Assembly (NCBI GenBank): GCA_905182655.1
Contig: CAJJCN010000075.1
Coordinates: forward strand, 1 to 48,041
DNA: 48,041 nucleotides
Direction of reading: 5' to 3'
From: Flammeovirgaceae bacterium UBA4465
Lineage (GTDB): Bacteria > Bacteroidota > Bacteroidia > Cytophagales > Cyclobacteriaceae
Position numbers and translations under genes: made by a program. The notes under the pieces are model-generated. The model was given only the letters and a program-made list of their open reading frames with translations. It was not told the origin of the DNA and did no database searches. Numbering within the stretch: position 1 is the first letter of the stretch; each line of letters starts with the position of its first letter. Shown in pieces: positions 40,509 to 44,103 of the stretch.

Positions 40509-41621
40509 ATGGAGAGTTTTGTTGTATCGGCAAGGAAATACAGGCCTTTAGGGTTTGGAGAAGTAGTAGGTCAAGGTCATATTACCACGACTTTAAAAAA
40601 CGCAATTGATCAAAATCAATTGGCACAAGCCCTATTGTTTTGTGGACCTCGAGGGGTTGGAAAAACTACTTGTGCCCGTATTTTATCCCGAATGATCAAT
40701 GGGTTTGAAGCTAAAAATGGAGATGCAAACACGGCCAATTTAAATATTTATGAATTAGATGCCGCATCCAATAATTCAGTTGAGGATATTCGAAATCTTA
40801 TTGATCAAGTTCGATATCCACCTCAGGAAGGTAAATACAAAGTTTACATCATTGATGAGGTCCACATGTTGTCCAATCAGGCGTTTAATGCCTTTTTAAA
40901 AACACTCGAAGAACCTCCCTCATACGCGATCTTCATTTTGGCGACTACAGAAAAGCACAAAGTCATTCCCACCATACTGTCAAGATGCCAGATTTATGAT
41001 TTCAATCGAATTGAAATCGAAGAGATCGTAGGTCAATTGAAAAAAATAGCAAAGGAAGAAGGTATCAGTTATGATGATGATGCCTTGCACTTAATTGCTC
41101 AGAAGTCAGATGGGGCTTTACGAGATGCCTTGTCTATGTTTGATTTGATTGTAACCTTTTCTTCAGACAAAAAAATCACTTATGAAAATACGATCACCCA
41201 TCTGCATATCCTTGATCACGATTATTATTTTAAGTTGCTGGATTTTTTTATGGAACAAGATCTATCTGCAACGTTGGTGCTGTTTGATGAAATACTGAAA
41301 AAAGGATTTGATGCGCATAATTTTCTGATCGGCTTGGCCCAACATTTTAGAAATGTATTGGTGTGCCAAAATCCAGCAACCTTAGCCTTGTTAGAAGTTT
41401 CGGAGAATGTCAAGAATAAGTTTATGGATCAAGCTGAGCGGTCCTCTACTTCATTTTTGCTTTCAGGCTTAAATATGATTAACCAATGTGACCTCAGTTA
41501 TAAGCAGAGTAAGAATCAAAGGCTTCATATAGAACTTTGCCTGATGAAGCTGTCTCAGCTTGATCGAGCCTTTAAACTTTCAGCGCCTGAAGAGGTAGTA
41601 AAAAAAAAAGCATTGACCTAG
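40509..41621 (+). CDS. dnaX: DNA polymerase III clamp loader, gamma form (zero-frame product of dnaX)
   Basis: The zero-frame protein has 370 aa and matches domains I-III of DnaX, the clamp-loader ATPase that opens the sliding clamp. Walker A is GPRGVGKT (46-53), Walker B is IIDEVH (114-119), and the sensor/arginine-finger motif SRC is at 158-160. Residues about 210-360 are the collar domain. The usual four-cysteine zinc module after Walker A is missing: the segment CARILSRMINGFEAKNGDAN leads directly to NIYELDAASNNSVEDIR. The frame ends VVKKKALT-stop just after a run of ten A at 41600-41609. The product therefore lacks the DnaB- and polymerase-binding domains and equals an E. coli gamma-like protein. 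See the linked C-terminal part and the frameshift site. Confidence 0.92.
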   Translation: MESFVVSARKYRPLGFGEVVGQGHITTTLKNAIDQNQLAQALLFCGPRGVGKTTCARILSRMINGFEAKNGDANTANLNIYELDAASNNSVEDIRNLIDQVRYPPQEGKYKVYIIDEVHMLSNQAFNAFLKTLEEPPSYAIFILATTEKHKVIPTILSRCQIYDFNRIEIEEIVGQLKKIAKEEGISYDDDALHLIAQKSDGALRDALSMFDLIVTFSSDKKITYENTITHLHILDHDYYFKLLDFFMEQDLSATLVLFDEILKKGFDAHNFLIGLAQHFRNVLVCQNPATLALLEVSENVKNKFMDQAERSSTSFLLSGLNMINQCDLSYKQSKNQRLHIELCLMKLSQLDRAFKLSAPEEVVKKKALT

Positions 41622-41666
41622 ATGAACTGCCTACTTCTCGCGAGAAAATCGACGCGAAAGAGGTAG
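41591..41666 (+). promoter_or_regulatory. Candidate dnaX recoding site: A10 slippery run with stimulators
   Basis: The run of ten A at 41600-41609 is read as GTA AAA AAA AAA GCA in the zero frame, then stops at TAG 41619-41621. A -1 shift on the run enters the tau frame. An SD-like AGAGG at 41591-41595 lies just upstream. A hairpin follows: CTACTTCTCGCG (41631-41642) pairs with CGCGAAAGAGGTAG (41653-41666) around a 10-base loop, with a two-base AA bulge and one G-U pair. The stem starts 21 bases after the run, farther than the usual five to nine. Transcriptional slippage on A10, as in Thermus dnaX, or ribosomal frameshifting, as in E. coli, could both work. Confidence 0.6.
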
Positions 41667-42358
41667 AAGATGAAAAGGCAGAAAAGAATGCTGACCAAGC
41701 AACGGAAAACGAAGCGCCTGCGCGTTCCTCGGATTTAAAGCCTGAGCTCTCATCTCCAAGTCAAAAAGAAACCCTATCAATTTCCAGTGAAAAGAAACCC
41801 GAGCCGCTGAAAGAGGTAAATAAGATAAATGAGGAGAAGGATACTGAGCTAGTAATCTCAAAGCAAGTGCCTGCCCGCCCCTCGGATTTAAAGCCTGAGA
41901 TCTTATCTCCAAGTCAAAAAGAAACGCCTTCAATTTTTAAGAAAAAGAAAGACCAACCGCTCAAAGAGGTCAAGGAAAAAATATTGAAAAATGAAGCATT
42001 TACAGAAACGCAACTTCAAGCGGCCTGGAAGGATTTCATTGAATTACGTAAGAAAAAAGTGGTAAGTGAAATGGAGCAGCTCATCTTGACACGTCAAATA
42101 ACTAAAAAAGACATGAATGCCCTTATTGTACTCAATAGCTCTTTAGAGATTGCTATATTGGATCGGATTGAAATAGAATTGGTTAATTTTTTAAGGGAAG
42201 CCTTGTCCAATGACCAGTTGACGCTTCAAAAAGAAGTTAAAGAGGACCCTAAAAAAGACAAACTTTATACCAGCAAGGACAAATACGAATTTATGGTAAA
42301 AGAGCAGCCCTTACTTCAAAAATTAAAAGATAAATTAGGATTGGATTTTGAGTATTAG
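41609..42358 (+). CDS. dnaX: Tau-specific C-terminal part of dnaX, reached by a -1 frameshift
   Basis: The -1 frame is open from the A10 run to 42358 and has 249 codons. It begins SIDLDELPTSREK, continues as a charged Lys/Glu/Pro-rich linker with an internal duplication, and ends in a compact helical domain (TETQLQAAWKDFIELRKKK and a C-terminal PLLQKLKDKLGLDFEY) of the kind seen at the C-terminus of Bacteroidota tau. Joined to the 367 codons before the shift it gives a 616-aa tau, close to E. coli tau (643). An internal ATG at 41867 lies mid-linker and is unlikely to be a start. The stop overlaps the convergent transglycosylase gene's stop by four bases. If the A-run length is a sequencing error, tau would be encoded in one frame. 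Confidence 0.8.
   Translation, partial: SIDLDELPTSREKIDAKEVEDEKAEKNADQATENEAPARSSDLKPELSSPSQKETLSISSEKKPEPLKEVNKINEEKDTELVISKQVPARPSDLKPEILSPSQKETPSIFKKKKDQPLKEVKEKILKNEAFTETQLQAAWKDFIELRKKKVVSEMEQLILTRQITKKDMNALIVLNSSLEIAILDRIEIELVNFLREALSNDQLTLQKEVKEDPKKDKLYTSKDKYEFMVKEQPLLQKLKDKLGLDFEY
41717..41971 (+). repeat. Two-copy direct repeat inside the DnaX tau linker
   Basis: Copies at 41717-41818 and 41870-41971 (102 bases each, period 153) encode PARSSDLKPELSSPSQKE and PARPSDLKPEILSPSQKE followed by PLKEV-type ends. The period is a multiple of three, so the linker stays in frame. Confidence 0.85.
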
Positions 42359-44103
42359 TTGCTGGGAACCTTGAGTTTGTCTCCAATCAATACCACGTCA
42401 TTGGTGCGTCTGTTGAGTCGCATTAACTCCTTGACTTTCATGTTATGTTTAGTGGCAATACTATAAAAAGAGTCACCTGCCTTTACTATGTAGATTTTGG
42501 ATTTGCTTGATTTAGGAAGCCCTTTATGGGTCGAAAATATATATAATTCTTGGTTTACGTTCAAGGCATCATTTTCATTAATTTCATTAAAGGTTCGTAA
42601 GTCTTTGACTGACACATTATATTTTTGGGCGATAGACCAGAGCGATTCTCCTTCTACCACGATATGAATATTTTTAGCTGTTGATATTTTTTTCTTCGCG
42701 TTTGTACGGGTTTGAGCGAGTTCTTCTGACTTTTCTGGTTGCACTGCGATGTCAGTAGTCCCTACATTTATTTCTTTTTTATCATCTATTCTATCTTTTT
42801 GTGCTGTTTTATGGTATTGGATAGGTGTACTCTTAGGTCTTTTTGCATTGAGCCATAAAATCCTATCAATTTTGATTTTTTCGTTTACTGTCATACGATT
42901 CATGGTCATTAATTTGTTGAGTCGGAGGGCATATTTCTGTGAAATGGACCAAAGCGTTTCGGATTTTTGTACTACATGAAAACCAATTTTAGATTTCGAT
43001 TTTTTGGATTCGAGATAGTAAATGGTATTGACTTTTATCTTATCCTGAGGCTTGAGATCATTGTATTTGACTAATAGTTTGATTGAAATCCCTGCTTCAG
43101 CGGCAAGGGAGTTAATGTTATTAGATTTACCTGATAAAATGGCGGCCAAGTCATTAAATTTTAATTTCTTTGAATTTACATCTAAGAGTCCAGGTACCAT
43201 TTCAGAAGGAAATATTTTTTCTTTAATCTGTGCCCTTTCTACACGGGGTTTGGGTTCAATTTCCGCTACGACTTCGGACAATGATTTATTTTTGACTTTT
43301 TGATGAGTAGGAATCAATACGACATAAGTTTTGTCTTCAGGAATTTCTCCAGAGCGGATCCATTTATTGTATGTTTTGACCAAATTCACATCAAGTTTAA
43401 ATTCCTTGGCGATACGACTCAAATTTTTGTTCGCTCCCTTATTGAATTCAATCAGAGATAAGTTTTGAGAATGCTTGTCATTGACTCGATCTTGAAAGGC
43501 GATTTTATGAGCGATGAATTTCTTGACATACCAATGGGTAGAAGCATTAATTTCTAATTTTCTAGCACCATATTTTGATTTATTCATATATTTCCTAGCG
43601 CCACCCATCCCAGCTTGATAGGCAGACATGGCATAAATCCAATTGTTCACTAAGAAATTGTTTCTTTTTAGATACGTTGCGGCTCCACGAGATGAAGCAA
43701 CGATATTTTTTCTTTCGTCTATCTGTTTGTCCACGCGCAAGCCCACTTCACGGGCAGTGAAATCTTTGAATTGCCAAAAACCAACGGCATCAGCCGAGGA
43801 GACGGCATCGGAGACCAATCCACTTTCCTGAATGGCAAGGTATTTGAAATCATCGGGAACCCCTTCTTCCTTGAAAACACGTTCTATAATAGGGAAATAG
43901 AGGAGCATGCGGTCTACCTTCATTTGATAATACTTGGGACTGCTAGTGAGCGAATTGACTTGCTTCTGAATTTCAGCCATGACACTTCTAGACAAAACAA
44001 GTTTCATGTTACCAAATTCAACTTCTTTGGGAACCACAGGTGTACCATTGGCCAGAAGGATGAACGTATGCAGGATGCATATTATGAAGAAATTAATTCT
44101 CAT
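42355..44103 (-). CDS. Exported MltD-like lytic transglycosylase with LysM repeats
   Basis: This 582-aa protein starts with a signal peptide (to about residue 20). Residues about 80-200 are an SLT/MltD catalytic domain with the general acid Glu93 in YLAIQESGLVS, then GFWQFKDFTAREVGLRVD and YAMSAYQAGMGGARKY. Three clear LysM domains follow at about 375-418, 480-523 and 537-580 (for example GESLWSIAQKYNVSVKDL), with two degenerate ones near 220-265 and 315-365. It would cleave peptidoglycan glycan strands while bound to them. Its start overlaps the stop of the O-methyltransferase gene by four bases (ATGA), so they are coupled. Confidence 0.92.
   Translation of the reverse strand: MRINFFIICILHTFILLANGTPVVPKEVEFGNMKLVLSRSVMAEIQKQVNSLTSSPKYYQMKVDRMLLYFPIIERVFKEEGVPDDFKYLAIQESGLVSDAVSSADAVGFWQFKDFTAREVGLRVDKQIDERKNIVASSRGAATYLKRNNFLVNNWIYAMSAYQAGMGGARKYMNKSKYGARKLEINASTHWYVKKFIAHKIAFQDRVNDKHSQNLSLIEFNKGANKNLSRIAKEFKLDVNLVKTYNKWIRSGEIPEDKTYVVLIPTHQKVKNKSLSEVVAEIEPKPRVERAQIKEKIFPSEMVPGLLDVNSKKLKFNDLAAILSGKSNNINSLAAEAGISIKLLVKYNDLKPQDKIKVNTIYYLESKKSKSKIGFHVVQKSETLWSISQKYALRLNKLMTMNRMTVNEKIKIDRILWLNAKRPKSTPIQYHKTAQKDRIDDKKEINVGTTDIAVQPEKSEELAQTRTNAKKKISTAKNIHIVVEGESLWSIAQKYNVSVKDLRTFNEINENDALNVNQELYIFSTHKGLPKSSKSKIYIVKAGDSFYSIATKHNMKVKELMRLNRRTNDVVLIGDKLKVPSN

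Follow-up and report, generated by a model that had tools for sequence, protein, structure and literature searches.

The dnaX gene in a 48,041-nucleotide (nt) stretch of DNA from Flammeovirgaceae bacterium UBA4465 (contig CAJJCN010000075.1 of assembly GCA_905182655.1; the whole stretch is referred to here as the window) is very likely recoded at a run of ten A residues (A10), whereby a single gene would yield both a gamma and a tau subunit, as an initial annotation of the window sequence had proposed. That annotation did not decide whether ribosomal frameshifting or transcriptional slippage was the mechanism. The comparative evidence presented here comprises drift of the genomic reading frame among relatives, early closure of both frames that do not encode tau, a predicted hairpin abutting the run on its 5' side, and the reported failure of Bacteroidia ribosomes to recognise Shine-Dalgarno (SD) sequences. 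Together these favour slippage at A10, which is probably the main route to the two products.

The gene lies on the plus strand at positions 40509-42358 (Table 1), within a metagenome-assembled genome (MAG) of 1.77 Mb in 95 contigs that is 81.5% complete. The zero frame begins with ATG, reads the run as A_AAA_AAA_AAA followed by GCA, and ends at a TAG three codons further on, giving a product of 370 amino acids (aa); the run, the stop and the product length were confirmed as first annotated. This product is matched by Pfam DNA_pol3_gamma3 over residues 235-365 and by NCBIfam PRK14971 over residues 1-355 (model positions 1-366), and Escherichia coli gamma (PDB 1jr3_A) aligns with residues 3-347. 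The -1 frame is open through a linker and a tau-type C-terminal domain, as had also been described, and its tail matches PRK14971 model positions 379-613 (E 7e-22); by arithmetic, the two frames joined at the run make 616 aa. The tau tail is kept in the genus to its final residues (LDFEY). Because changes in the last 106 codons relative to six congeners fall mostly at third codon positions (for example 8/1/20 and 9/4/33 by codon position), the substitution pattern indicates that the tau frame is under protein-level selection.

The arrangement is conserved in the genus. Nine other members were searched, of which seven have a full-strength dnaX, one (G008) has a weak paralogue-like match and one (G009) has none. 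All seven congeners with dnaX keep the split, with a run of A9-A11, a zero-frame stop 9-17 nt later and tau in the -1 frame, so the annotated combination of run and nearby stop holds up when relatives are aligned. Counting the window, the split frame is seen in 8/8 genus members and exactly A10 in 6/8. Two larger sets of loci were then compared. The main set comprises 183 dnaX loci from the genus, order and class and, for some, from outside the class, following exclusion of one paralogue (L002) and two second copies (L061 and L089, of L047 and L044, respectively). The second set comprises named-strain loci, the best 80 matches, reduced to 78 by removing two Flavobacteriales records (L228, L288) equal to main-set loci (L138, L163). 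Runs were scored per locus as the longest stretch of at least six A in an interval from about 30 nt upstream to 225 nt downstream of the point where the collar match ends, and runs elsewhere would be missed. We see at least nine A at the site in 155/183 main-set loci (exactly A10 in 126) and in 69 of the 78 named-strain loci (A10 in 57), while the order-level sample, window included, gives 50/56 dnaX loci, 45 of them with exactly ten. Off the site, A runs of at least nine number only 17 in 605,448 bases of the 183 loci, and because they are so rare in the same loci, the run at the dnaX site is not a product of chance. Run-bearing named genera include Flavobacterium, Pedobacter, Hymenobacter, Chitinophaga and Aureispira, and in the named set the trait spans Flavobacteriales, Sphingobacteriales, Cytophagales, Chitinophagales, Saprospirales, Marinilabiliales and part of Bacteroidales. 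Outside the class it is found in 9/20 loci, seven of these as A9.

The frame that encodes tau, relative to the DNA's own frame, drifts among these relatives. Of 154 main-set loci, 80 encode tau in the zero frame, 71 in the -1 frame and 3 in the third frame, a zero/-1 ratio that should not be read as a frequency, as some batches were chosen by frame length (one for short and two for long frames). One further locus (L071) has the run at the very end of its contig, and is counted among the 155 above but not among these 154. The corresponding numbers in the named set are 48, 19 and 2 of 69. On a quick maximum-likelihood tree of the DnaX N-terminal part, the frame labels need at least 28 changes and run presence needs 20, both of which could be inflated by weakly resolved branches. 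Within Flavobacteriaceae, similar upstream sequence followed by a run occurs with all three offsets, in F. denitrificans (A10, -1), Flaviramulus (A10, zero) and Flavobacterium sp. YO12 (A9, third), the last of which is possibly a sequencing slip. For the five third-frame loci (three main, two named), tau cannot be made by a ribosomal -1 shift from the sequences as they stand. The drift favours slippage, which makes transcripts in all frames, whereas a ribosomal -1 shift works only if run and frame keep a constant relation to each other.

If many run lengths are present in the mRNA, then both unwanted frames should stop early, and early stops are indeed what we see. In the window, the non-tau frames stop 4 and 9 nt past the run. 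Both stop within 30 nt in 149/154 main-set loci, compared to a null of 31% taken from other codons of the same tau regions, and in 63/69 of the named set. The farther of the two stops lies at a median of 10 nt at the site versus 46 nt at the other codons. In the frame that a ribosomal -1 shift would not reach, a stop comes within 30 nt in 99% of loci having tau in the -1 frame and in 95% of those having it in the zero frame, where 52-60% would be expected. The eleven failures of closure (five main, six named) are all in that never-entered frame, eight of them with a stop at 31-44 nt and three at 74, 182 and 258 nt.

In the 154 loci, RNA folding was scanned with 32-nt segments placed at 37 offsets, spanning -160 to +120 relative to the run. 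The single sharp signal is the segment abutting the run on its 5' side (mean minimum free energy (MFE) -6.4, z -0.9), the other 36 giving -2.5 to -4.4 (z +0.1 to -0.4), and it fades within six bases of displacement. For the 26 nt abutting the run, the mean MFE is -5.3 (z -1.07), compared to -1.1 to -2.7 (z +0.1 to -0.3) at other offsets, and the signal is replicated in the named set (26-nt segment, mean MFE -5.6, z -1.35). In 163 non-redundant loci the signal has p 7e-15 under a dinucleotide null and 2e-12 under a synonymous-codon null. When arms are exchanged between loci, pairing is much poorer than with the arms of one and the same locus (Z -14), the segments at -26, -52 and +0 giving -0.8 to -1.5. 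The predicted hairpin is a clear signal across the group, and is a tendency, not a rule.

Several observations weigh against slippage as the main route, or against a part for the hairpin in it. Individually, only 33-36% of loci reach p<=0.05 for the hairpin, and a perfect stem of at least five pairs abuts the run in 50/163 non-redundant loci versus 157/978 control windows. At the upstream control offset of -52, too, folding deviates from the synonymous-codon expectation (z -0.30, p 0.006), and the arm-swap test gives a small downstream pairing excess at +6, +12 and +20, reaching +46 (Z -3.0 to -4.2). The hairpin is not significant in the window itself (z -0.28), nor in the genus (mean z -0.38, 0/8 at p<=0.05), and because of these values it is a minor or absent helper in the window's genus. 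No A run of at least six is found at the site in 18/183 main-set loci (ten of them outside the class, and one, L172, at a contig end that makes its lack of a run uncertain) or in 7/78 named loci, so some lineages do without it. A_AAA_AAA is also slippery for ribosomes, and a ribosomal share is possible. SD-like 5-mers occur upstream of the run in 35/223 loci versus 41/1115 control windows (3.7%), making them about four times commoner at the site, and F. johnsoniae retains an SD-bearing prfB motif (PMC12421855).

These points bear most directly on programmed -1 ribosomal frameshifting on A10, in which standard reading would give gamma, and a shift aided by an SD-like element before the run and a hairpin after it would give tau. 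In its favour, the A_AAA_AAA heptamers are in frame, AGAGG stands upstream of the run in the window, and reversed-type candidates, such as one in a Chlorobium, are mentioned by Atkins et al. (2016, PMC5009743). As the sole or main explanation we nevertheless consider it unlikely. The AGAGG is present where the initial annotation placed it, but its role as a stimulator is doubtful, because Bacteroidia ribosomes are reported to fail to recognise SD sequences (PMC9976891), though the 5-mers are enriched; Glu-rich coding and the 3' arm of the hairpin may contribute to this enrichment, and do not fully explain it. Frameshifting at prfB in F. johnsoniae is described as being of low efficiency (PMC12421855), and SD-blind ribosomes combined with poor prfB frameshifting make SD-stimulated ribosomal frameshifting a less likely route. 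The downstream hairpin is likewise real in the window (z -3.66, with 16 predicted pairs rather than the 12 first annotated), but it starts 17 nt past the run, and the same region in the seven congeners folds to only -1.9 to -7.3 kcal/mol, compared to -16.7 kcal/mol in the window. As it is not kept in congeners, and as the fold scan shows no strong downstream structure across the group beyond the small pairing excess, it was rejected as a conserved stimulator. The E. coli-type slippery heptamer A_AAA_AAG is absent from the shift frame at the window run. Finally, ribosomal shifting is at odds with the presence of tau in three different frames, including the five loci where such a shift could not make it, and with closure of a third frame that it never enters.

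A phase-variation switch at the DNA level, whereby replication slippage alters the run length within a population and individual cells make either gamma or tau, would accord with run lengths of 9-12 and with the frame changes between species. It is very improbable, given that frame and length are stable in the genus (A10 in 6/8, tau in the -1 frame in 8/8) and that both the hairpin and the closure of two frames would go unexplained. Moreover, every cell is expected to require tau. The initial annotation also raised a homopolymer error or recent assembly indel, with 11 A in truth and one unbroken frame from which only tau is made. The window does come from a MAG, and one base would join the frames, but separately assembled congeners come close to excluding this idea, with A10, the split and the stop 9-17 nt past the run shared as given above, and the same arrangement is seen again at order and class level and in named strains, among them Flavobacterium denitrificans DSM 15936. 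That only gamma is made, the -1 frame being a decaying remnant, would suit a zero frame that ends at the end of the collar domain, but is scarcely credible for a tail that matches the tau part of PRK14971, is conserved to LDFEY in the genus and changes mostly at third positions of the tau frame.

With transcriptional slippage as the preferred reading, RNA polymerase would stutter on A10 to give mRNAs with differing numbers of A. Those with the templated ten, or with a number giving the third frame, would meet a stop 4-9 nt past the run and yield gamma (~370 aa), while one extra A (or two fewer) would lead into the -1 frame and yield tau (616 aa), which carries the conserved C-terminal tail. 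Across the group, a hairpin in the RNA 5' of the run would form behind the polymerase and favour slippage, as proposed for an insertion sequence (IS) element of Roseiflexus; in the window, the predicted hairpin is weak. With transcripts in all three frames, the DNA's own frame would matter little. We infer the slipping polymerase, the role of the hairpin and the ratio of the products from what is observed in the sequences, namely how they are built and conserved, the drifting frame, the early stops in both non-tau frames and the hairpin signal across the group.

Transcriptional slippage on A9 has been reported for dnaX of Thermus thermophilus (PMC1088944, PMC5009743). Like it, the window gene has a run of A on the sense strand close to where the gamma part ends, would give two products, and has off frames that reach a stop soon after the run. 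It differs in that the DNA's own frame encodes tau in Thermus and gamma in the window, with both types among the relatives (tau in 80/154), and in having ten A instead of nine. The 5' hairpin is a group-wide signal here. Because its own frame is gamma, the window dnaX is not assigned to the Thermus sub-type, although it would operate in the same way.

The view, expressed in the initial annotation, that dnaX recoding is not well described in Bacteroidota needs correction. The two-ORF type with A10 (ORF, open reading frame) was already reported by Antonov et al. (2013) using GeneTack, with 17 two-ORF dnaX genes from 12 genera, nine of them with ten A, for which slippage was predicted (PMC3711429). 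Only Chlorobi species are named in the text section on these genes, and the nine with ten A may include some from Bacteroidota. The window has each of the features of that cluster: two adjacent ORFs, a -1 shift at the DNA level and a poly-A of ten. The dnaX section of that paper does not describe one-ORF A10 relatives, frame drift, third-frame closure or a 5' hairpin. To the known prediction of slippage at A10 in dnaX, the present analysis adds breadth, frame drift and the hairpin. Among the titles and abstract openings of the open-access literature matches listed, no report of a phylum-wide pattern, of frame drift or of a dnaX 5' hairpin was found.

In E. coli, dnaX uses a -1 ribosomal frameshift on A_AAA_AAG (PMC3711429, PMC5009743). 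The same pair of products is obtained there from one gene by recoding at an A run, but the E. coli shift has SD-like and downstream stem-loop stimulators and makes gamma, whereas here it is tau that needs a frame change. The close stem-loop of E. coli has no counterpart in the window, where the downstream hairpin is not conserved and lies 17 nt from the slip site. In the Roseiflexus IS element (Penno et al. 2015, as described by Atkins et al., PMC5009743), slippage has been proposed to be driven by a hairpin that forms in the nascent RNA immediately 5' of the site. The position of that hairpin matches the group-wide signal seen here, which is not significant in the window alone. The Roseiflexus site is T5C5 with base loss, in contrast to the run of ten A here, for which the role of the hairpin is putative.

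Taking the group as a whole, we lean towards a broader proposal: that hairpin-assisted RNA polymerase slippage on A10 is the ancestral gamma/tau route in Bacteroidia and some outgroups within the phylum. The route would be 'frame-free', in that selection would keep the run, the hairpin and the stops in both unwanted frames while the DNA's own frame drifts between gamma, tau and neither. It may serve in place of ribosomal frameshifting because the ribosomes cannot use SD stimulators. If this is true, much of a major phylum relies on deliberate transcriptional infidelity for a core replication gene, and two oddities of Bacteroidota would be joined, SD-blind ribosomes and slippage in place of frameshifting. 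The genomic frame would be a poor guide to the product, and dnaX zero frames of gamma length would otherwise pass for truncated genes. The loci would also provide more than 220 natural sites at which to study how hairpins tune polymerase slippage, and the role of gamma would be testable in laboratory strains of Flavobacterium.

The loci without a run may reflect loss, or the use of another slippery sequence. In the named set these are L243, L263, L264, L271, L274, L287 and L291, and the sole Prevotellaceae and sole Bacteroidaceae loci of that set both lack the run; the Bacteroidaceae locus has G7 in its place, with a -1 stop 3 nt on. At L274 (Bacteroidales), which has a 383-aa zero frame, neither an A run nor a slippery heptamer was found. 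Four further loci have a run of only six or seven A together with an in-frame heptamer, which is A_AAA_AAG in L026 (G023), L045 (G042) and L160 (G160) and A_AAA_AAC in L081 (G115). A -1 stop lies within 15 nt in L045, L160 and L081, while in L026 the zero frame stops at once and tau is in the -1 frame; L026 and L160 also have GGAGG upstream. Judging from these motifs, the four may have switched to E. coli-like ribosomal frameshifting.

Table 1 Features of the dnaX locus in the window.
Feature	Position	Strand	Basis
dnaX zero frame, 370-aa gamma-type product (AAA+ ATPase and collar domain)	40509..41621	+	ORF; Pfam/NCBIfam matches; E. coli gamma alignment
Weak predicted hairpin just 5' of run, core UUCAG CGC CUGAA	41568..41596	+	-6.4 kcal/mol, z -0.28
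SD-like AGAGG; doubtful stimulator in Bacteroidia	41591..41595	+	Sequence
A10 run, putative slippage site	41600..41609	+	Sequence; conserved in relatives
-1 frame with repeat-bearing linker and the conserved C-terminal domain of tau, ending at TAG 42356-42358	41609..42358	+	PRK14971 match; conserved tail
TGA closing third frame, 4 nt past run	41614..41616	+	Sequence
TAG closing zero (gamma) frame, 9 nt past run	41619..41621	+	Sequence
Downstream hairpin, 16 predicted pairs	41627..41666	+	-16.7 kcal/mol, z -3.66

The tau linker of the window contains a repeated segment (PAR.SDLKPE..SPSQKET) at ~41714-41772 and ~41867-41927, the copy number of which seems variable among congeners. In one congener (L005), the frame of the tau linker breaks a second time ~310 nt past the run and the conserved tail continues in another frame, owing to an assembly error or a change in the repeats. 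A convergent LysM/SLT transglycosylase gene occupies 42355-44103 on the minus strand, its end overlapping the tau stop by four bases.

A further 27 A10 tracts of the same genome were checked, with up to 1 kb on each side (slightly more where two are close), and 19/27 have no sense frame of at least 90 codons across them. Two loci of this genome are possible further slippage sites: L203, with an A13 inside a 463-codon open frame, and L211, with an A10 at 1412-1421 inside a frame that carries an AP_endonuc_2 domain.

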